Shown here piece by piece: positions 5,484 through 14,727 of a stretch of 64,000 bases of DNA. A model generated the notes under the pieces. That model had not been told where the DNA came from and did no database searches. It worked only from the letters and a program-made list of their open reading frames with translations. Origin of the DNA: Pseudomonas sp. LFM046 (GTDB taxonomy: Bacteria; Pseudomonadota; Gammaproteobacteria; Pseudomonadales; Pseudomonadaceae). How positions within the stretch are numbered: the first letter of the stretch is position 1; each line of letters opens with the position of its first letter. The position numbers and the translations under genes were made by a program. The stretch covers positions 824,161 to 888,160 of the forward strand of contig NZ_JYKO02000001.1 of the NCBI RefSeq assembly GCF_000949385.2, read 5' to 3'.

Positions 5484-6494
5484 TTAACGCTGATGGCGGA
5501 TGCGCGGGTTAACCAGGCCGTAGAGGATGTCCACGACGAAGTTCACCAGGATGACCAGGCAGGCGATCAGCAGGATGCCGTTCTGCACCACCGGGTAGTC
5601 GCGGGCGCCAATGGCCTCGATCAGCCATTTGCCGATGCCGGGCCAGGAGAAGATGGTTTCCGTCAGCACGGCACCGGCGAGCAGGGTGCCCACCTGCAGG
5701 CCGAACACGGTGATCACCGGGATCAGCGCGTTGCGCAGGCCATGGACGAAGACTACGCGGGCCGGCGACAGGCCCTTGGCGCGGGCGGTGCGCACGTAGT
5801 CCTCGCGCAGCACTTCGAGCATCGCCGAACGGGTCATCCGGGCGATCACCGCCAACGGGATGGTACCCAGCACGATGGCGGGCAGGATCAGGTGACGCAG
5901 GGCGTCGACGAAGGAGCCTTCCTCATCGCTGAGGAGGGTGTCGATGAGCATGAAGCCGGTCTTCGGCTCGATGTCGTAGAGCAGGTCGATGCGCCCGGAC
6001 ACCGGCGTCCAGCCCAGGCCCACGGAGAAGAACATGATCAGCAGCAGGCCCCACCAGAAGATCGGCATGGAGTAACCCGCCAGCGAGATGCCCATCACGC
6101 CGTGGTCGAATAGCGAACCGCGCTTGAGCGCAGCGATTACCCCGGCGAGCACCCCGAGGGTGCCGGCGAAGATCAGCGCGGCGATGGCCAGTTCCAGGGT
6201 GGCGGGGAAGAGGGTGAGGAATTCGTGCCAGACGCCTTCGCGGGTGCGCAGCGATTCGCCCAGGTCGCCCTGTGCCAGCTTGCCGACGTAGTCCAGATAC
6301 TGTTGCGGCAGCGGTTTGTTGAGGCCGAGGCGTTCCATGGCCTGGGCGTGCATTTCCGGGTCGACCCGGCGCTCACCCATCATCACTTCCACCGGATCGC
6401 CGGGGATCAGGCGGATCAGGGCGAAGGTGAGCAGGGTGACGCCGAAGAAGGTGGGGATCAGAAGCCCCAGTCGGCGTGCAATGAAACTCAGCAT
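5484..6494 (-). CDS. dppB: Dipeptide ABC transporter permease DppB
   Basis: 336 residues, the usual DppB length. It starts with a membrane segment (MLSFIARRLGLLIPTFFGVT) and shows the conserved LIPGDPVEVMMG motif. The EAA-like stretch SPARVVFVHGLRNALIPVITV lies near residues 245-265. It forms the inner-membrane channel with DppC. It is the first of the core genes; a 203-nt gap with strong hairpins separates it from the binding-protein gene upstream. In P. aeruginosa (from memory) opdP and dppA4 occupy that position. Confidence 0.92.
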   Translation of the reverse strand: MLSFIARRLGLLIPTFFGVTLLTFALIRLIPGDPVEVMMGERRVDPEMHAQAMERLGLNKPLPQQYLDYVGKLAQGDLGESLRTREGVWHEFLTLFPATLELAIAALIFAGTLGVLAGVIAALKRGSLFDHGVMGISLAGYSMPIFWWGLLLIMFFSVGLGWTPVSGRIDLLYDIEPKTGFMLIDTLLSDEEGSFVDALRHLILPAIVLGTIPLAVIARMTRSAMLEVLREDYVRTARAKGLSPARVVFVHGLRNALIPVITVFGLQVGTLLAGAVLTETIFSWPGIGKWLIEAIGARDYPVVQNGILLIACLVILVNFVVDILYGLVNPRIRHQR

Positions 6495-6572
6495 TTGAGC
6501 GAATCACTCCTCATCATTTTGATGCCGGCCGGTAAATCTGGCCGTTCCCAGCAGTTTAGGCCGCGTGGGTAA

Positions 6573-6606
6573 AGGCGCCGCCCCGACAGTGTCGGGGGCG
6601 GCGCCT
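6573..6606. terminator. Large GC-rich hairpin between the binding-protein gene and dppB
   Basis: An inverted repeat with 16-nt arms and one bulged G: AGGCGCCGCCCCGACA, then TGTCGGGG-G-CGGCGCCT. There is no U-tract on the minus-strand transcript side, so it is more likely an mRNA stabiliser or attenuator than a full intrinsic terminator. Such hairpins often set a high ratio of binding protein to permease in ABC operons; that role is inference here. Confidence 0.55.
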
Positions 6607-6670
6607 GGCGTTCGTTGTGGCAGGTGAGATAAGCCTCGTCCGGTCTGATGCCGGTCTGAGGTATGCAAGA

Positions 6671-6692
6671 AGAGGCCGGTTGCCCGGCCTCT
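6671..6692 (-). terminator. Hairpin just after the dppA3-type gene
   Basis: Read on the minus strand: AGAGGCCGG-GCAA-CCGGCCTCT followed by TCTTGC. It starts 6 nt after the stop of the binding-protein gene. The following tract is only partly T-rich, so it may be a leaky terminator that lets some transcripts continue into dppB. Confidence 0.6.
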
Positions 6693-6697
6693 TTGGC

Positions 6698-8299
6698 TTA
6701 GCGCTGGCTGGAGACGCCGTAGAAGGAGTTCAGACCGAACGGGCTGATCTTGTAGTCCTGTACGTCTTTGCGCATCGGCTGGTAGACGGTGGAGTGGGCG
6801 ATCGGGGTGATCGGCACCGCGTCTTTCAGGAGGTGCTGGGCCTGCTTGTACATCTCGGTGCGCTTGGCCTGGTCCGGGGTGGCCTTGGCCTGCTTGATCA
6901 GCTTGTCGTAGGCGGGGTCGCACCACTTGGAGAAGTTGTTGCCGCTGACCGCGTCGCAGCCGTACAGGGTGCCCAGCCAGTTGTCCGGGTCACCGTTGTC
7001 GCCGCTCCAGCCGATCAGCATGGCGTCGTGCTCGCCGCCCTTGGAGCGCTTGATGTACTCGCCCCACTCGTAGCTGACGATCTTCGCCTTGATGCCGACC
7101 TTGGCCCAGTCGGCCTGGAGCATTTCGGCCATCAGCTTGGCGTTGGGGTTGTACGGGCGCTGCACCGGCATGGCCCAGAGGGTGATTTCGGTGCCTTCGG
7201 CCACGCCGGCGGCCTTCAGCAGCTCCTTGGCCTTTTCCGGGTTGTAGCCGGCGTCCTTGATGGTCTCGTCGTAGGACCACTGGGTCGGCGGCATGCCGTT
7301 CACCGCCAGTTGGCCGGCGCCCTGGTAGACGGCGTCGATGATGGCTTTCTTGTTCACCGCCATGTCCAGCGCCTGACGCACTTCCAGCTTGTCGAACGGC
7401 TTGTGGGTGACGTTGTAGGCGATGTAGCCGAGGTTGAAGCCCGGCTGCGACGGCATCTTCAGGTTCGGGTCCTGCTTCAGCGCGTCCAGGTCGGCCGGGC
7501 GCGGGAACAGGGTGACCTGGCACTCGCCGGCCTTGAGCTTCTGCATGCGCACCGAGGCGTCGGTGTTGATGGCGAAGATCAGGTTGTCGATCTTCACGTC
7601 ACCGGGCTGCCAGTACTCCTTGTTGCCGGTGAAGCGGATCTGCGCGTCCTTCTGGTAGCGCTTGAAGACGAAGGGGCCGGTGCCCACGGGCTTCTGGTTG
7701 ATGTCGGCGGCCTTGCCGGCTTTCAGCAGCTGGTCGGCGTATTCGGCGGACTGGATCGAGGCGAAGCTCATCGCCAGGTTCTGGATGAAGGCGGCGTCGA
7801 CGCTGTTGAGGGTGAACTTGACGGTCTGGTCGTCGAGCTTCTCCACCTTGGCGATGTTGGCGTCCAGGCCCATGTCGGTGAAGTAGGGGAATTCGGTGGG
7901 GTACGCCTTCCGGAACGGGTGGTTCTTGTCGAGCATGCGCTGGAAGGTGAAGACCACGTCGTCGGCGTTGAAGTCGCGGGTCGGCTTGAAGTACTCGGTG
8001 GTGTGGAACTTCACGCCCGGGCGCAGGTGGAAGGTGTAGCTGAGGCCGTCGGAGGAGATGTCCCATTTCTCGGCCAGGCCCGGAATCACCGCGGTGCCGC
8101 CGCGTTCGAACTGGGTGAGGCGGTTGAAGATGGTCTCCGCGGTGGCATCGAAGTCGGTGCCGGTGGTGTATTGGCCCGGGTCGAAGCCGGCGGGGCTGCC
8201 TTCGGAGCAGAACACCAGGTTATTGGCGGCGTGGGAGAGGCCGGAGCCGAGCAGCAGGCCGGCGGCGATCATGGTCTTGAGCTTGTTTTTCTGACGCAT
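6698..8299 (-). CDS. dppA3: Periplasmic dipeptide-binding protein (SBP family 5), DppA3-like
   Basis: 533 residues with a Sec signal peptide (MRQKNKLKTMIAAGLLLGSG, cleavage expected after SHA). The family-5 solute-binding signature is present, including FNADDVVFTFQRMLD and the GWSGDNGDPDNWLGTLYGC ligand-pocket region. It delivers di- or tripeptides to DppBCDF. It is about 90% or more identical by eye to the 12196-13797 product, but shares only moderate similarity with the 10554-12140 product. Its position between psdR and dppB matches P. aeruginosa dppA3. An AACAACAACAAC run abuts GAGG upstream, and predicted PsdR operators lie near the promoter. Confidence 0.9.
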   Translation of the reverse strand: MRQKNKLKTMIAAGLLLGSGLSHAANNLVFCSEGSPAGFDPGQYTTGTDFDATAETIFNRLTQFERGGTAVIPGLAEKWDISSDGLSYTFHLRPGVKFHTTEYFKPTRDFNADDVVFTFQRMLDKNHPFRKAYPTEFPYFTDMGLDANIAKVEKLDDQTVKFTLNSVDAAFIQNLAMSFASIQSAEYADQLLKAGKAADINQKPVGTGPFVFKRYQKDAQIRFTGNKEYWQPGDVKIDNLIFAINTDASVRMQKLKAGECQVTLFPRPADLDALKQDPNLKMPSQPGFNLGYIAYNVTHKPFDKLEVRQALDMAVNKKAIIDAVYQGAGQLAVNGMPPTQWSYDETIKDAGYNPEKAKELLKAAGVAEGTEITLWAMPVQRPYNPNAKLMAEMLQADWAKVGIKAKIVSYEWGEYIKRSKGGEHDAMLIGWSGDNGDPDNWLGTLYGCDAVSGNNFSKWCDPAYDKLIKQAKATPDQAKRTEMYKQAQHLLKDAVPITPIAHSTVYQPMRKDVQDYKISPFGLNSFYGVSSQR

Positions 8300-8307
8300 G
8301 CGAACCT

Positions 8308-8320
8308 CGTTGTTGTTGTT
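8308..8320 (-). promoter_or_regulatory. Hfq/Crc-type A-rich motif at the dppA3 ribosome binding site
   Basis: On the minus strand AACAACAACAAC runs directly into GAGG (positions 8308-8305), 5 nt before the ATG at 8299. It contains perfect AAYAAYAA matches, the known Hfq/Crc catabolite-repression target in Pseudomonas. Translational repression during growth on preferred carbon sources is the expected effect, by inference. Confidence 0.65.
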
Positions 8321-8484
8321 CTGAGGGGCGGCGTACCAGGTGCCGGGACGGTCACCTGAACCTGGGCCTTTGTGGGCGCAGGCTGCCCGTCAATCGCAAG
8401 CCAAGGGGCCGGGTGCCGGCGTTCCGGGGCTGGCGATGGCGGCGGAGGGATACAGGATGCTGGAGCCTCGGCCGACCGTGGCCG

Positions 8485-8521
8485 AACTTAAGTGATGCTG
8501 AAATTAAGGTCAACTTAAATT
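8485..8521 (-). promoter_or_regulatory. Predicted PsdR operators overlapping the dppA3 promoter
   Basis: On the minus strand AATTTAAGT-TGA-CCTTAATTT (8521-8501) matches the mdpA operator at 16 of 18 arm positions. A second, weaker overlapping copy, AATTTCAGC-ATC-ACTTAAGTT, lies at 8505-8485. A promoter-like TTGACC (8513-8508), a 17-nt spacer and TAAGTT (8490-8485) lies inside the operators. The -10 match is weak. The link to PsdR is inferred from the repeat being shared by the two promoters flanking psdR. Confidence 0.6.
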
Positions 8522-8551
8522 CAGTAAGGCTTACTTCCTGGAACCGATCGG

Positions 8552-9115
8552 TCAGGGCGTGGCGTGGTCGTCGAAAAGGCCCATGGTGGTCACACTCAAC
8601 ACCTCGGCCACATCGTCCCCGGTGTTGGCCAGGCAATGGGGTTTGCCGGCGTCGAAATGCACCGAATCACCCGGGCCGAGCGGATAGCTGCGGCCTTCGA
8701 TCGTGTAGACGATGTGCCCGGAGAGCACGTAGGCGAATTCGGAGCCTTCGTGGGAGATGAGTTCGGACTGGTAGCCCACCGGCATGCTCATCTTCACGGC
8801 GTTGATCAGGTTGCCGGGGAAGTTGCTGGACAGCCGCTCGTAGGCCAGGGGCTGGCCGCCGATGGTGTAGCGCACGCGCTGGCCCTGGTGAGAATCGGGT
8901 TGGGGCTGGGTGGGCTGATCGAACAGGGCGTTGAGGGGAATCCCCAGTGACTTGGCAATATTGGCCAGGGACGAGATGGATACGCCGGTGAGGTTGCGTT
9001 CCGCCTGGGACAGGAAGCTGGCCGTGAGACCCGATTCGGCGGCGACTTGGTTCAGGGTCTTGTTGGCGGCGCGGCGATAGCGACGCAACCGTTCGCCGAT
9101 CTGTTCTACGGTCAT
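8552..9115 (-). CDS. psdR: XRE-cupin transcriptional repressor PsdR (dipeptide metabolism)
   Basis: 187 residues. An N-terminal XRE helix-turn-helix (about 6-62; LNQVAAESGLTASFLSQAER) is joined to a C-terminal cupin (about 105-178; HEGSEFAYVLSGHIVYTIEG and GDSVHFDAGKPH). It lies between mdpA and dppA3 exactly as P. aeruginosa psdR (PA4499), the known repressor of dipeptide uptake and hydrolysis; that gene order is recalled, not searched. It is divergent from mdpA with a 162-nt shared control region. The cupin probably senses a small peptide or amino acid. PuuR-type regulators share the architecture, but the context favours PsdR. Confidence 0.85.
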   Translation of the reverse strand: MTVEQIGERLRRYRRAANKTLNQVAAESGLTASFLSQAERNLTGVSISSLANIAKSLGIPLNALFDQPTQPQPDSHQGQRVRYTIGGQPLAYERLSSNFPGNLINAVKMSMPVGYQSELISHEGSEFAYVLSGHIVYTIEGRSYPLGPGDSVHFDAGKPHCLANTGDDVAEVLSVTTMGLFDDHATP

Positions 9116-9189
9116 GGTTGTGGCTCTTGTTCTGAAGGGCGCCAGTATAACGAGCGGCGCATTGTAGAAAAGGCTTGTCGCATTGTTGA

Positions 9190-9244
9190 AATTTAAGTCT
9201 CACTGAAAAATAGCTTTGACGTGAATTTAAGTACAACTTAAATT
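9190..9244 (+). promoter_or_regulatory. mdpA promoter with tandem PsdR-type operators
   Basis: A perfect palindrome AATTTAAGT-ACA-ACTTAAATT lies at 9224-9244. It falls within a sigma-70-like promoter: TTGACG at 9216-9221, a 17-nt spacer and TAAATT at 9239-9244. Occupancy would therefore block RNA polymerase. A second imperfect copy, AATTTAAGT-CTC-ACTGAAAAA, lies at 9190-9210, centred 34 nt upstream. The region also lies ahead of psdR on the other strand, so autoregulation is possible. Repressor identity is inferred. Confidence 0.65.
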
Positions 9245-9277
9245 TTGCGAACTGCAACATTCATTCAGGAGCACAAG

Positions 9278-10495
9278 ATGGCAGTGGGCGTAGGTGGCAA
9301 GACCCAGGAGCAGGCACTGGCCGCGCTGGCCAACATGACTGCGGGCGTCGAGCCCATCGGTCTGGGCGAGTATCAGGCACGCATCAACAGGGCCCAGGGC
9401 CTGATGCGGGAGCAGGGCGTCGCGGCCATCTACCTGAATGCCGGGAGCAACCTGCGCTACTTCACCGGGGTGAAATGGAGCCCCAGTGAGCGCATGGTGG
9501 GCGCTGTGCTGCCGGCCAATGGTCCGCTGGCCTACATCGCCCCGGCCTTCGAGGAAGGCACCATCCGTGATTTTCGCGAAGTGGAGGGAGATATCCACAC
9601 CTGGCACGAGCACGAGAGCCCTTACGGCCTGCTGCTGCAGATGCTGGGCGCCATGGGCATCGCGTCCGATGCACGGGTGGGGCTGTGCCCGTCCCTGGCC
9701 TTCTTCATGTTCGACGGCATTCGTCGCCTGGGTGCGGGCTACAACTTTGTCGACGCGTCCTGCGTGATCAACCCCTGCCGCTTCCACAAGTCCGCCCATG
9801 AACTGGCGCTGATGCAGCGCGCCAAGGACATGACCCTGGACGTGCACAAGGCTGCCGCCAGCATCCTGCGCGCAGGCATCAGCACCACCGAGGTGGCCGA
9901 GTTCATCCACCAGGCGCACCGCAAGGTGGGTGCGCCGGGTTCCACGTTCTGCATTGTGCTGTTCGGCGAAGCCAGTGCTTTCCCTCACGGCGTGAAGCAC
10001 GCCCAGGTGCTGAAGGACGGCGACATGGTGCTGATCGATACCGGGTGCCAGCTGTACGGCTACCAATCGGATATCACCCGCAGCTATGTGTTCGGCAAGC
10101 CCAGCGAGCGCCAGCGTGCCCTCTGGAGTCTGGAGAAGGCGGCCCAGCAAGCAGCCTTCGACGCGGCCCGCCTCGGCGCTCCCTGCGGCTCGGTGGACGC
10201 TGCCGCCCGCCGTTGCCTGGAGGCCGGCGGCCTGGGCCCGGACTACCAGTTGCCCGGCCTGCCGCATCGCACCGGTCACGGCATCGGTCTGGACATCCAC
10301 GAAGGGCCCTACCTGGTGCGCGGTGACGAGACGCCGCTGGCCGAGGGCATGTGTTTCTCCAACGAGCCGATGATCTGCGTGCCGGGCGAGTTCGGCATTC
10401 GCCTGGAAGATCACTTCTACATGACGGCGGAAGGTCCGCGCTGGTTTACCCAACCGAGCCATTCCATCGACGATCCGTTCGGGTTGGAGGCGTAA
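9278..10495 (+). CDS. mdpA: M24-family metallo-dipeptidase MdpA
   Basis: 405 residues from the ATG at 9278, chosen because AGGAG (9267-9271) sits 6 nt upstream; the frame extends to a TTG at 9245 inside the operator. The pita-bread fold metal ligands of M24 peptidases are all present: D254 (LIDTG), D265 (QSDITR), H334 (RTGHGIG), E363 (SNEPMI) and E377 (RLEDHF). It has no signal peptide, so it would cleave imported dipeptides in the cytoplasm. Position next to psdR matches P. aeruginosa mdpA (PA4498). Xaa-Pro peptidase, creatinase and ectoine hydrolase share the fold; exact specificity cannot be read. Confidence 0.87.
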   Translation: MAVGVGGKTQEQALAALANMTAGVEPIGLGEYQARINRAQGLMREQGVAAIYLNAGSNLRYFTGVKWSPSERMVGAVLPANGPLAYIAPAFEEGTIRDFREVEGDIHTWHEHESPYGLLLQMLGAMGIASDARVGLCPSLAFFMFDGIRRLGAGYNFVDASCVINPCRFHKSAHELALMQRAKDMTLDVHKAAASILRAGISTTEVAEFIHQAHRKVGAPGSTFCIVLFGEASAFPHGVKHAQVLKDGDMVLIDTGCQLYGYQSDITRSYVFGKPSERQRALWSLEKAAQQAAFDAARLGAPCGSVDAAARRCLEAGGLGPDYQLPGLPHRTGHGIGLDIHEGPYLVRGDETPLAEGMCFSNEPMICVPGEFGIRLEDHFYMTAEGPRWFTQPSHSIDDPFGLEA

Positions 10496-10513
10496 CGGGC
10501 AGGCCTTCGGCCC

Positions 10514-10541
10514 GCTTGGCGAATGAATTCGCCCCTACAGA
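10514..10541. repeat. Single REP-like unit between mdpA and dppA2
   Basis: This unit is identical over 28 nt to 17008-17035. The core GGCGAAT-GA-ATTCGCC is a near-perfect hairpin. It lies between the convergent mdpA and dppA2 genes and has no inverted partner nearby, unlike the other REP loci. A smaller hairpin (GGGC-AGGCCTTCG-GCCC) precedes it at about 10498-10513. Confidence 0.65.
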
Positions 10542-10553
10542 CGCCAAGCCGCC

Positions 10554-12140
10554 CTATTTCACCAGCCTCACCCGCGCGAAGTTGTTCGACCCCAGCGGAT
10601 TCAGCTGAAACCCTTCCACACCCTTGCGCACCGCCGCGAATTGCTTGGGGTGGGCCAGGGGAATCCACGGCGCCTGCTCGTGGAAGATCGCCAGGGCCTG
10701 GCGATACAGCTCGGCACGGCGGGCGGGATCTGTCTCGGCGCGAGCCTGACGGATCAGCCCGTCGAACGCCTGGTTGCACCAGCCGGCCTGGTTCTCCCCG
10801 GAGATTGCCGCAGCGCAGGACAGGTTGGGGGTCAGGAAGTTGTCCGGGTCGCCGTTGTCGCCGGCCCAGCCCATGAACACCAGATCGTGCTCGCCGTTCT
10901 TGGCGCGCTTGATCAGTTCGCCCCATTCATACACACGAATCTCCGCCCTGATGCCGATGGCCGCCAGGTCAGCCTGGAGCATCTGCGCGCCGATGCCGGG
11001 GTTGGGGTTGGTCGGACCACCGCCGGGGCGGGTCCAGATGGTCAGCTTGAAACCGTCCTTGTAGCCCGCCTCGGCCAGTAGCTGGCGAGCCCTTTCCGGG
11101 TCGTGAGGCCAGGGCGACAGCGTGTCGTTGAAGCCCAGCAGGGTGGCCGGGTAGGGCGCCACGGCGATGCTCGCGTTGCCTTCGCCGAACTGGGCGCGCA
11201 GGTAGGCGTGGGTGTCGAAGGCGAGGTTGATGGCTTGGCGTACCCGCACGTCGTCCAGCGGCGGGTGGCGGGTGTTGATGCCGACGTAGGCGACCAGCAG
11301 GGAGTCGAGCTCAAGGATGTTCAGTGCCGGGTCCTTGCGCAGGCTCGCGATATCCGTGGGGCGGGGGTAGACCGCGATCTGGCAGGCGCCGGCCTTGAGT
11401 TGCTGCACTCGGACGTTGGGATCGGGGGTTATGGAGAACAGCAGCCGGTCAATCGCCGGCTTGCCTGCCCAGTATTCAGGGTTGGCGCGGTAGCGCACCT
11501 GGGCGTCCTTGCTATAGCGCTCGAAGACGAAGGGGCCGGTGCCCACTGGCTCCCGATTGAGTTGCTCGGGTTTGCCGGCTTTCAGCAACTGGTCGGCGTA
11601 CTCGGCCGAATAGAGGGAGGTGAAGCCCATGGCCAGGTCGGCGAGGAAGGGCGCCTCAGGGTGTTTCAGGGTGAAGCGCACGCGATGATCGTCCAGCTTT
11701 TCGATGCGCTCGATCAGTTGCGCCAGGGCCATGGATTCGGCGTAGGGAAACCCGCGTGGGGAGAGCGTGTGCCAGGGGTGGGTCGGATCGAGCTGGCGCT
11801 GGAAGCTCCAGATTACGTCGTCGGCATTGAACTCGCGGCTTGGGGTGAACCAGGGCGTGCGGTGGAATTTCACGCCCTTGCGCAGCTGGAATTCGTAGAT
11901 GAGGCCGTCAGGGCTGATGCTCCAGCTTTCCGCCAAGGCGGGCTGTAATCGAGTGCTGCCGGGAGCGAATTGCACCAGGCGATCGAAGATGGTCTCGGCC
12001 GAGGCATCGGCCGTGGTGGCAGCGGTGTACTGGACGATGTCGAAGCCTTCGGGGCTGGCTTCGGTGCAAACCACCAGGGATTGGCTGGCTGCGGCGTAGA
12101 GGGGAAGGCAGAGAGCGAGGGACAGCAGGCTTCGACGCAT
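10554..12140 (-). CDS. dppA2: Periplasmic peptide-binding protein (SBP family 5), DppA2-like
   Basis: 528 residues with a signal peptide (MRRSLLSLALCLPLYAAASQ). It shares the SBP-5 scaffold with its neighbours, including FNADDVIWSFQRQLD and GWAGDNGDPDNFLTPNLSCAA. It is far more diverged than the other two, with a different pocket region (LLVAYVGINTRHPPL), suggesting a different peptide range. It follows the 12196-13797 gene in the same direction after an intrinsic terminator, so expression may depend on readthrough. The start has AAGGAAG upstream. Placement fits P. aeruginosa dppA2 (PA4497). Confidence 0.85.
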   Translation of the reverse strand: MRRSLLSLALCLPLYAAASQSLVVCTEASPEGFDIVQYTAATTADASAETIFDRLVQFAPGSTRLQPALAESWSISPDGLIYEFQLRKGVKFHRTPWFTPSREFNADDVIWSFQRQLDPTHPWHTLSPRGFPYAESMALAQLIERIEKLDDHRVRFTLKHPEAPFLADLAMGFTSLYSAEYADQLLKAGKPEQLNREPVGTGPFVFERYSKDAQVRYRANPEYWAGKPAIDRLLFSITPDPNVRVQQLKAGACQIAVYPRPTDIASLRKDPALNILELDSLLVAYVGINTRHPPLDDVRVRQAINLAFDTHAYLRAQFGEGNASIAVAPYPATLLGFNDTLSPWPHDPERARQLLAEAGYKDGFKLTIWTRPGGGPTNPNPGIGAQMLQADLAAIGIRAEIRVYEWGELIKRAKNGEHDLVFMGWAGDNGDPDNFLTPNLSCAAAISGENQAGWCNQAFDGLIRQARAETDPARRAELYRQALAIFHEQAPWIPLAHPKQFAAVRKGVEGFQLNPLGSNNFARVRLVK

Positions 12141-12166
12141 CGGGCTTCCTTATTGATTGCAAAGAA

Positions 12167-12188
12167 AACGGGGCCCGAAGGCCCCGTT
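12167..12188 (-). terminator. Intrinsic terminator after the dppA1-like gene
   Basis: On the minus strand AACGGGGCC-TTCG-GGCCCCGTT followed by TTCTTTGC: a 9-bp stem with a stable UUCG-type loop and a T-rich tail. It starts 8 nt after the stop and precedes the dppA2-like start by about 27 nt. Confidence 0.75.
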
Positions 12189-12195
12189 TGCCGGC

Positions 12196-13797
12196 TTACT
12201 TGCTGATGCTCACGCCATAGAAGGAGTTGAGGCCGAACGGGCTGATCTTGTAGTCCTGCACGTTCTTGCGCATCGGCTGGTAGACGGTGGAGTGAGCGAT
12301 CGGGGTGATCGGCACATTCTCCTTCAGGAGGTGCTGGGCCTGCTTGTACAGCTCGGTGCGCTTGGCCTGGTCGGTGGTGCGTTTGGCCTCTTTTATCAAT
12401 TTGTCGTAGGCGGGGTCGCACCACTTGGAGAAGTTGTTGCCGTTTACCGCGTCGCAGCCGTACAGGGTGCCTAGCCAGTTGTCCGGGTCACCGTTGTCAC
12501 CGCTCCAGCCGATCAGCATGGTGTCGTGTTCGCCGCCCTTGGCACGCTTGAGATATTCGCCCCATTCGTAGGTGACGATCTTCGCCTTGATGCCGACCTT
12601 GGCCCAGTCGGACTGGAGCATTTCGGCCATCAGCTTGGCGTTGGGGTTGTACGGGCGCTGCACCGGCATGGCCCAGAGGGTGATTTCGGTGCCTTCCTTG
12701 ACGCCAGCGGCCTTCAGCAGCTCCTTGGCTTTTTCCGGGTTGTAGCCGGCGTCCTTGATGGTCTCGTCGTAGGACCACTGGGTCGGCGGCATGCCGTTCA
12801 CCGCCAGTTGGCCGGCGCTCTGGTAGACCGCGTCGATGATGGCTTTCTTGTTCACCGCCATGTCCAGCGCCTGGCGCACTTCCAGCTTGTCGAGCGGCTT
12901 GTGGGTGACGTTGTAGGCGATATAGCCATCGTTGAAGCCCGGCTGCGATGGCATCTTCAGGTTCGGGTCCTGCTTCAGGGCTTCCAGGTCGGCCGGGCGT
13001 GGGAACAGGGTGATCTGGCATTCATTGGCCTTGAGCTTCTGCATGCGCACCGAGGCATCGGTGGTGATGGAGAAGATCAGGTTGTCGATCTTCACGTCCT
13101 CGGGTTTCCAGTAGTCCTTGTTGCCGGTGAAGCGGATCTGCGCGTCCTTCTGGTAGCGCTTGAAGACGAAGGGGCCGGTGCCCACGGGCTTCTGGTTGAT
13201 GTCGGCGGCTTTGCCTTGTTTCAGCAACTGGTCGGCGTATTCGGCGGACTGGATCGAGGCGAAGCTCATCGCCAGGTTCTGGATGAAGGCGGCGTCGACG
13301 CTGTTGAGGGTGAACTTGACGGTCTGGTCGTCGAGCTTCTCCACCTTGGCGATGTTGGCGTCCATGCCCATGTCGGTGAAGTAGGGGAATTCGGTGGGGT
13401 ACGCCTTCCGGAACGGGTGGTTCTTGTCGAGCATGCGCTGGAAGGTGAAGACCACGTCGTCGGCGTTGAAGTCGCGGGTCGGCTTGAAGTAGTCCGTGGT
13501 GTGGAACTTCACGCCCTTGCGCAGGTGAAAGGTGTAGTTGAGGCCGTCGGGAGAGACGTCCCACTTCTCGGCCAGGCCCGGAATCACCGCGGTGCCGCCG
13601 CGTTCGAACTGGGTCAGGCGGTTGAAGATGGTTTCCGCGGACGCATCGAAATCGGTGCCGGTGGTGTATTGGCCCGGATCGAAGCCGGCGGGGCTGCCCT
13701 CGGAGCAGAACACCAGGTTATTGGCGGCGCTGGCGAATGGAACGCTGGCAATCAGCCCAGCCGCGACAAGTGCCTGGATGACGGCGTTTTTACGCAT
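12196..13797 (-). CDS. dppA1: Periplasmic dipeptide-binding protein (SBP family 5), DppA1-like
   Basis: 533 residues with a signal peptide (MRKNAVIQALVAAGLIASVP, cleavage after ASA). It has the same length as the 6698-8299 product and is nearly identical from the mature N-terminus onward. The signal peptide and the last residues differ most. Parts of the two genes are almost identical at DNA level (13228-13491 against 7730-7993, one mismatch). It supplies peptides to DppBCDF. Its leader lacks the PsdR-type palindrome; only a half-site, AATTAAGT at 13899-13906, is visible. Position at the outer end of the cluster fits dppA1 (PA4496). Confidence 0.87.
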   Translation of the reverse strand: MRKNAVIQALVAAGLIASVPFASAANNLVFCSEGSPAGFDPGQYTTGTDFDASAETIFNRLTQFERGGTAVIPGLAEKWDVSPDGLNYTFHLRKGVKFHTTDYFKPTRDFNADDVVFTFQRMLDKNHPFRKAYPTEFPYFTDMGMDANIAKVEKLDDQTVKFTLNSVDAAFIQNLAMSFASIQSAEYADQLLKQGKAADINQKPVGTGPFVFKRYQKDAQIRFTGNKDYWKPEDVKIDNLIFSITTDASVRMQKLKANECQITLFPRPADLEALKQDPNLKMPSQPGFNDGYIAYNVTHKPLDKLEVRQALDMAVNKKAIIDAVYQSAGQLAVNGMPPTQWSYDETIKDAGYNPEKAKELLKAAGVKEGTEITLWAMPVQRPYNPNAKLMAEMLQSDWAKVGIKAKIVTYEWGEYLKRAKGGEHDTMLIGWSGDNGDPDNWLGTLYGCDAVNGNNFSKWCDPAYDKLIKEAKRTTDQAKRTELYKQAQHLLKENVPITPIAHSTVYQPMRKNVQDYKISPFGLNSFYGVSISK

Positions 13798-14010
13798 GTT
13801 GACCTCATGTCTGTTTTGTTTGTCGTCGTGCGGGGCCCCTTGCGGGGGGCCTTGCGGAAAGCAATGCAGGACATATGCCCTGCGTGACAGCGGAACAGAA
13901 TTAAGTGTAGTCGGCGGAATAACGCTGCAAGTGCGGGGCGCACGTGTGTATGTCGCGATTGGAGGAGGGGGAGGGCGCCGCGCCGTTGCGGAGCGGCGCC
14001 CGATGCGGGA
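13798..14010. promoter_or_regulatory. Leader and upstream region of the dppA1-like gene
   Basis: 213 nt with no gene. ATGAGGTC precedes the ATG and gives a GAGG ribosome site. Upstream on the minus strand is GACAAACAAAACAG, an imperfect relative of the Hfq/Crc motif. A GC-rich hairpin (GGGGCCCC...GGGGGGCC, about 13834-13850) lies in the leader. The SIMPL-domain gene ends at 14011. No clear sigma-70 promoter was identified by eye. Confidence 0.35.
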
Positions 14011-14727
14011 TCAGGGCATCTGCACTTCGATGGTGCCGTCGGCGCTGACCAGGACGCGGCTGGTGCCTGCCTCGATTTCCGGCACGGCAGCACCGTCGGC
14101 GTAACCTTTGGCCGCCATGGCGCGCATCATGATCGGTTGCGGCGGCTGGAAGCCGGCGCTGTTCAGGCTCAGGTTGACCAGCTTGTAGCCCTTGCCGCCG
14201 AGCGCGTCGGTTGCCAGCTGGGCGCGGGCCTTGAAGGCGTCCACGGCCTGCTTGATCAGTTCGTCCTCGTGGGTCTTGCGGGTCTTCTCGGCGATGCTGA
14301 AGTTCATCCCGGCCATCTTCAGCTGGCCCAGCAGATCGGCGCTGAGCTGGGATAGAGTGGCGAAGTCGGCGCTTTCCAGGCGCAGCTCGGCGCGCTCGCG
14401 CCAGGCGGTGATCTTCTGGCCCTTTTCGTCATAGACCGGGTAGCTGTTGCGGCTGCCCAGGCTGACGGTGACCCCCTTGGTTTTGCGTGCCTTCTCGACG
14501 GCGCTGTTGAGGGTACGGGTGATCTCATCGGCCAGCTTGGCCGGGTCGGTGTTCTGCGACTCGCTGTAGAGGGTGACGTGCATCAGGTCGTGGGCCACCT
14601 CCTGGCTGACCTCGGCGCGCACCGCCACCTGGTTGTAATGGACGTCCTCCGCTGCCTGGGCAGAGAGGCTGCCGAGGCTGGCGGCGCAGAGGGCGAGGGC
14701 GGCGGCGAGGCGGGTGAACTTGGGCAT
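14011..14727 (-). CDS. SIMPL-domain (DUF541) exported protein
   Basis: 238 residues from the ATG at 14727, which has AAGGAG 5-6 nt upstream and opens a clear signal peptide (MPKFTRLAAALALCAASLGS, cleavage near AQA). The open frame upstream of this is not coding. The mature part is a SIMPL/DUF541 domain: alternating strands, KTRKTHEDELIKQAVDAFKARA, and the MMRAMAAKGYADGAAVPEIEAG region near the C-terminus. The family includes periplasmic proteins of unclear role such as E. coli YggE, linked to oxidative stress. It sits between the dpp cluster and roxSR and is transcribed away from the latter. No specific function can be assigned. Confidence 0.8.
   Translation of the reverse strand: MPKFTRLAAALALCAASLGSLSAQAAEDVHYNQVAVRAEVSQEVAHDLMHVTLYSESQNTDPAKLADEITRTLNSAVEKARKTKGVTVSLGSRNSYPVYDEKGQKITAWRERAELRLESADFATLSQLSADLLGQLKMAGMNFSIAEKTRKTHEDELIKQAVDAFKARAQLATDALGGKGYKLVNLSLNSAGFQPPQPIMMRAMAAKGYADGAAVPEIEAGTSRVLVSADGTIEVQMP

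Follow-up and report, generated by a model that had tools for sequence, protein, structure and literature searches.

The repressor gene psdR lies between two promoters that it probably controls, and the locus raises the question of whether each of them is governed by a single PsdR site or by several sites that act together. The first study of PsdR is reportedly that of Kiely in 2008. PsdR of P. aeruginosa binds and represses at mdpA and dppA3 according to DAP-seq, RNA-seq, RT-qPCR, and EMSA (Trouillon et al. 2021, PMC7901475; here and below, papers are cited for passages of their text), and its core palindrome has been given as TTAAG-N5-CTTAA (Qiu et al. 2024, PMC10965056). The published model places a dimer on one palindrome, with two binding regions around psdR; the two shifted EMSA bands were interpreted as a PsdR monomer and a PsdR dimer on that palindrome, and a probe mutated in half of the palindrome gave a faster band (PMC7901475). 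We addressed the question in a 64,000-nucleotide stretch of the Pseudomonas sp. LFM046 genome (the window) and at psdR loci from other genomes.

RESULTS

The psdR locus

The psdR gene (8552..9115, minus strand) encodes a repressor of 187 aa with an N-terminal XRE-type helix-turn-helix (HTH_3, 34.1 bits against a cut-off of 23) and a C-terminal cupin domain (Cupin_2, 76.1 bits against a cut-off of 27.2), and the protein is 87% identical to PsdR of P. aeruginosa PA7. The gene sits between the divergent mdpA (9278..10495, plus strand), which encodes an M24 metallopeptidase and whose ATG at 9278 is in frame with the open reading frame at 9245-10495, and dppA3 (6698..8299, minus strand), which encodes a family 5 solute-binding protein. 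Beyond mdpA, domain profiles identified two more genes for family 5 solute-binding proteins, followed by dpp permease genes. An AlphaFold2 model of PsdR (mean pLDDT 79.4, pTM 0.55) had 1Y9Q as its best full-length PDB match, the title of which names an HTH_3 regulator without DNA, and none of the best 50 PDB matches listed for the model had a DNA complex in its title. No Rfam family was found in 6400-14200.

Operator copies in the two flanking promoters

The initial annotation had proposed that both promoters flanking psdR share a palindromic PsdR operator that could be sought genome-wide. The pattern AATTTAAGTNNNACTTAAATT, allowing up to 3 mismatches counted over 18 positions, matched the window at exactly four places, namely, 9224-9244 (0 mismatches), 8501-8521 (2), 9190-9210 (3), and 8485-8505 (3), and the same four were the sole matches at this threshold in the whole genome (5,972,904 bases). 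There were no matches in 100 dinucleotide shuffles of the window, nor did AATTTAAGTNNNACTTAAATT reversed match its own genome anywhere. The published core is exact at 9227-9241 and 8504-8518, that is, within 9224-9244 and 8501-8521, and P. aeruginosa PsdR binds both promoters, which bears out the assignment of the palindrome to PsdR. With the exact core and the similar protein, the main part of this finding is already in print, both operator and regulator, for the close relative P. aeruginosa, with which the window has in common the regulator family, the neighboring genes, and the core.

To describe the copies, we call site C the one that starts 2 nt after the TTG(AC) of the −35 element and ends in the −10 element, site B the one that lies one step (16 to 17 bp) upstream of C, and site A the one that lies two steps (32 to 34 bp) upstream. 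At mdpA, site C is the perfect palindrome AATTTAAGT-ACA-ACTTAAATT at 9224..9244 (plus strand), situated between the −35 TTGACG (9216..9221) and the −10 TAAATT (9239..9244), which forms its final 6 bp; pattern search and promoter positions agree here with the earlier description of a perfect palindrome within TTGACG-17-TAAATT (9216-9244, plus strand) ahead of mdpA. Site A at 9190..9210 (plus strand) lies 34 bp upstream, with 3 mismatches and the core TTAAG-N5-CTGAA. It directly adjoins the −35 element of a putative psdR promoter, TCAACA-17-TACAAT (9161..9189, minus strand; 9 of 12 positions, by consensus match only), so that the mdpA site pair could autoregulate psdR as well.

The same layout of −35, 2 nt, and operator is found at dppA3, where the promoter TTGACC-17-TAAGTT runs from 8513 to 8485 on the minus strand (−35, 8508..8513; −10, 8485..8490, a weak match). 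Site C at 8485..8505 (minus strand; 3 mismatches) starts 2 nt after the −35 and has the −10 as its final 6 bp, and site B at 8501..8521 (minus strand; 2 mismatches) lies 16 bp upstream and straddles the −35. A degenerate third copy with 6/18 mismatches occupies site A (8517..8537, minus strand), 32 bp upstream of C, and its counterpart has 3 to 5 mismatches at L009, L021, L032, L035, L038, L041, and L042. The earlier reading of 8501-8521 as a 16-of-18 match is accurate, but its placement inside the dppA3 promoter spacer is not, and the roles of the two dppA3 sites have to be reversed because it is 8485-8505, previously taken as the weaker second copy, that stands where the perfect palindrome stands at mdpA, while the better-matching 8501-8521 overlaps the −35. 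A consensus promoter scanner reported the mdpA promoter and a psdR promoter; the dppA3 promoter was absent from its output, TAAGTT matching TATAAT at 3/6 positions.

The dppA3 transcript would have a leader of about 180 nt (8300-8478, minus strand), and this carries AACAACAACAA immediately 5′ of the ribosome-binding site (8320-8310, minus strand), a sequence resembling the A-rich Hfq/Crc motif. If it is such a motif, it would put catabolite control on top of PsdR control at dppA3.

Operators follow their target genes

We found 89 psdR loci, of which 80 were scored on both sides; one of these, L083, is on a contig that begins within psdR and does not enter the mdpA-side table, which leaves 79 loci with upstream sequence. 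A site with at most 5 mismatches was present at 68/68 loci with a divergent mdpA (67 at ≤3 mismatches, one at 4 to 5) and at 0/11 loci that lack mdpA. On the other side, 70/71 loci with a binding-protein gene within 1,500 bp downstream had a site, the sole exception being L084, which has a shortened psdR reading frame, and 8 of the 9 loci without a downstream binding-protein match had none, with L012 being the one that did. The operators thus track their target genes, and chance matching is rejected both by the shuffles and by this dependence of the sites on their targets.

The conservation expected upstream of mdpA across Pseudomonas was also observed: all 18 genomes of the same genus had a site within one mismatch of TTTAAGTNNNACTTAAA, and all 21 matches fell in the psdR-mdpA interval (18 loci checked), three of them being second matches 34 bp from the first. 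The control with TTTAAGTNNNACTTAAA reversed gave 6 matches in the same 18 genomes.

Two groups of loci deserve mention in their own right. Ten loci of a P. protegens/chlororaphis-type group (L025, L029, L031, L036, L039, L040, L043, L045, L046, and L074) have psdR and a downstream dppA gene, with neither mdpA nor an upstream operator. In Stutzerimonas stutzeri RM2 (L084:4001-4369), the psdR frame has only 122 codons and flanking operators are still present.

Second sites keep a fixed register

Of the 160 region slots (80 loci by two sides), 124 have a primary site with at most 3 mismatches and entered the register count; the other 36 comprise 21 without any site and 15 with a best site of 4 to 5 mismatches. 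All 116 secondary copies with at most 5 mismatches within 66 bp of the primary site stood 16, 17, 32, 33, or 34 bp from it, and 0 at any other distance; 43 of them belong to mdpA-side regions and 73 to dppA3-side regions. When the flanks were shuffled with the primary site kept, a mean of at most 0.75 such copies was obtained per set; a neighbor at 16 to 17 bp gains about 4 positions by self-overlap, and keeping the primary site in the shuffles allows for that. Further sites therefore lie in a fixed register beyond chance. At 6 mismatches, 167 of 184 copies were on register and 17 off, 14 of the latter at 11 bp, a distance at which the palindrome partly matches a shifted copy of itself. After thinning to <60% identity, an on-register partner was retained in 20/33 mdpA-side and 19/20 dppA3-side regions. 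The weaker second copies of the initial annotation, 9190-9210 and 8485-8505, are thus real and belong to a phasing seen across loci.

Base conservation pointed in the same direction. In the 22 dereplicated mdpA-side regions, the left-half G of site A was kept in 95% and the right-half C in 86%, and both were kept in 100% of the 27 dereplicated dppA3-side regions, while no site with ≤5 mismatches was found at the five groups of control offsets on either side. Counted by locus, on-register partners (≤5 mismatches) occur at 42/68 mdpA-side and 67/71 dppA3-side loci that have a site; the remaining 26/68 (including Stutzerimonas and relatives of P. nitroreducens) and 4/71 have a single site at this threshold, so that the phased partner is not indispensable. 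At an offset of −50 bp from the mdpA-side primary site, which would be the third step of the same register, matches were seen in 1 region at six mismatches and in 6 regions at seven.

The tandem register looks like the new part of the finding: the P. aeruginosa operator is described in the passages covered as one palindrome per promoter (PMC7901475, PMC10965056), unlike the phased copies found here, and no description of a tandem register of PsdR sites was found in the titles, abstract openings, and text passages covered.

Arrangements differ between lineages

Site C was anchored, with TTG 2 nt before it, at 47/80 loci on the mdpA side and 69/80 on the dppA3 side. The anchored dppA3 promoters consisted of 40 with A+C at 32 bp, 17 with A+B+C, 8 with B+C at 16 bp, 1 with A+C at 34 bp, and 3 with C alone; 2 further loci had sites with C not anchored, and 9 had no sites. 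Among the anchored mdpA promoters, A+C at 33 bp (17) and at 34 bp (16) prevailed, followed by C alone (9), B+C at 17 bp (4), and A+B+C (1), the rest being 21 loci with sites but an unanchored C (17 single sites and 4 pairs at 17, 33, or 34 bp) and 12 with none. The window combines A+C (34 bp) at mdpA with B+C (16 bp) and a degenerate A at dppA3. The locus is laid out in the same way in PA7, where the mdpA partner lies at 34 bp and the dppA3 partner at 32 bp, so that the two differ in the dppA3 partner, which lies at 16 bp in the clade of the window.

The start-to-start spacings of 34 and 16 bp noted initially are therefore correct, but as a contrast between the two promoters they do not hold, being a feature of the clade only: most relatives have a spacing of 32 bp on the dppA3 side, and a common set of steps serves both promoters. 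The 34/16 combination of the window is lineage-specific. A tree of 79 PsdR proteins (L083 and L084 left out) requires at least 14 changes of dppA3 arrangement when all classes are counted, a number that partly reflects the mismatch threshold, as with L028 versus L030, which have identical PsdR proteins. At the mdpA promoter of Tahibacter and relatives, A+C (L076 and L080) and B+C (L079 and L081) both occur. The window clade shares the 16-to-17-bp arrangement, with a palindrome over the −35, with the P. nitroreducens group, Lysobacterales, and an alphaproteobacterium.

Lone sites in P. aeruginosa

The PA7 genome has 11 matches to TTAAG-N5-CT(T/G)AA, and the three at psdR each have a phased partner (1 or 4 mismatches). 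Another lies upstream of a LasR-type gene. This site, with 5 mismatches overall, has the same core, TTAAG-N5-CTGAA, as 9190-9210 of the window but, unlike it, is lone, as no neighbor better than 10 mismatches was found within 60 bp. PsdR bound the lasR site in EMSA, and the lasR peak was about one-third of the mdpA and dppA3 peaks (PMC10965056). The lone state of the site, as read from the PA7 sequence, would agree with that weaker signal. A further lone PsdR-like site (L128, PA7 4281220-4281234; 3 mismatches), away from psdR and lacking a phased partner, lies between two genes, oppositely placed or co-oriented.

DbuR and other XRE-cupin regulators

For DbuR, an XRE-cupin repressor of P. putida, the authors describe, in the passages covered, a protected region of 44 bp in which they name one palindrome of 20 bp, and their EMSA has an intermediate band at low protein. 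We collected 17 DbuR loci, consisting of 7 genomes with the palindrome (298 searched), 9 loci found by protein similarity (119 genomes), and the PA7 homologue. A second palindrome was located at exactly 16 bp in 17/17, with 2 to 4 mismatches over 14 arm positions, about 4 of which come free by overlap, and a four-half-site scan of two DbuR loci scored above 30/30 shuffles. With a 16-bp step, the two palindromes together cover 36 bp and so account for the 44-bp footprint better than a single palindrome does. The DbuR operator thus resembles that of PsdR in having an XRE-cupin repressor, a palindrome over the −10, and a second palindrome one 16-bp step away, whereas its AATTCT arms and its targets are different.

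A blind four-half-site scan beside XRE-cupin genes, in which operator positions were not given (15 regions, 30 shuffles each), recovered the registers of PsdR (34 and 32 bp) and DbuR (16 bp). Among the other 11 regions, scores above all shuffles were obtained at 15 bp (ErfA-like) and 30 bp (L120); L118 gave 21 bp in a scanned region that did not include its true second palindrome, which lies at 16 bp. The remaining regions, where operators had not been located beforehand, did not score above their shuffles. By eye, no such register was seen in the PA4985-PA4986 intergenic region (L121 and L122). In E. coli puuA-puuD, the two best matches to a PuuR box lie 95 bp apart, with no 16-bp register. 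The register as a trait of all XRE-cupin regulators is thus not supported, being seen neither at PuuR nor by the blind scan in those other regions, although the scan carries little weight in either direction. Both PA7 and the window genome have retained an AGTAAAAAAACAAGTTGATTTTTTACT-like sequence between the PA4985-like and PA4986-like genes (L121 and L122, about 1010-1060 in each), which is a candidate operator for the XRE-cupin regulator resembling PA4987.

DISCUSSION

Tandem repressor operators with phased neighboring dimer sites are familiar from phage CI, controller proteins, and the DtxR/IdeR type, in which dimers sit on opposite faces of the DNA, although these have other protein architectures and other step lengths than PsdR. 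We consider it probable that PsdR operators work by a dimer at site C that blocks RNA polymerase, in cooperation with neighboring dimers on 16-to-17-bp steps. As site C lies exactly between the −35 and −10 elements, a PsdR dimer bound there would exclude the polymerase. Sites B and A, one or two steps upstream, would be occupied by a second dimer and, in the case of dppA3, possibly by a third, and adjacent dimers would stabilize each other, making repression tight and release sharp; release would follow when dipeptide ligands load the cupin domains. A step of 16 to 17 bp is about 1.5 helical turns and should put adjacent dimers on nearly opposite faces of the DNA, while 32 to 34 bp, about 3 turns, should return to one face. 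Two cooperating dimers per promoter are what the conserved site pairs suggest, and the two-site layout, perhaps together with the faster band of the half-palindrome mutant, makes it natural to read the two shifted bands as one versus two dimers.

The published model, with its dimer on one palindrome and two binding regions around psdR (PMC7901475), would instead have one dimer per promoter and leave the second copies as decayed remnants or chance AT-rich sequence, and some loci do have only one recognizable site. Remnants would not hold one register, as the copies do (116 on and 0 off, against a shuffle mean of at most 0.75), nor would they be expected to keep the G and C of site A at 86 to 100% in the dereplicated sets while control offsets have no sites; we therefore regard this explanation as improbable. 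About equally doubtful is that the 32-to-34-bp spacing is mere packing of two operators around the −35, with dimers that make no contact. The arithmetic suits it on the dppA3 side, where the 32 bp are made up of 3 nt, the −35, 2 nt, and a single operator of 21 bp, but the 16-to-17-bp version lies over the −35 itself in the four lineages named above, and the DbuR step of 16 bp is not bound to the −35.

That site A is an UP element for the alpha subunit of RNA polymerase rather than a repressor site might be supposed from its AT-richness and its place upstream of the −35, where UP elements usually lie. Its dyad symmetry and the conservation of the G and C that mark the operator lead us to reject this reading, to which we give very little credence, all the more so as partners also occur over the −35 (site B), one step downstream (L077), and starting at the −10 (DbuR). 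Looping of PsdR across the approximately 720 bp between the two promoters, with the flanking operators as one unit, would explain why two operators flank one gene, but it is most unlikely, since either operator occurs without the other where the other target is missing (eight loci without the downstream and eleven without the upstream operator) and so works alone.

Beyond PsdR, the chances seem about even that a class of XRE-cupin repressors, at least PsdR and DbuR, binds not as a lone dimer but as stacked dimers, arranged like the rungs of a ladder at intervals of 16 to 17 bp and on alternating faces. If so, lineages would keep the ladder and change which of the rungs A, B, and C bear strong sites, the published two-band shifts would represent one versus two dimers and not a monomer and a dimer, and a lone site, such as the one at lasR, would be a weak target bound without cooperativity.

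For PsdR and DbuR, the register amounts to a concrete change in the model of DNA binding that can be put to the test, and it gives another reading of the published gel shifts (PMC7901475; PMC12724383, both cited for passages) and of the 44-bp DbuR footprint. A phased partner also provides a sequence criterion that separates the psdR-flanking promoters from the lone lasR site in PA7. Since psdR is repeatedly targeted during the evolution of P. aeruginosa on casein (PMC10965056, PMC12021273), the true range of PsdR targets matters.
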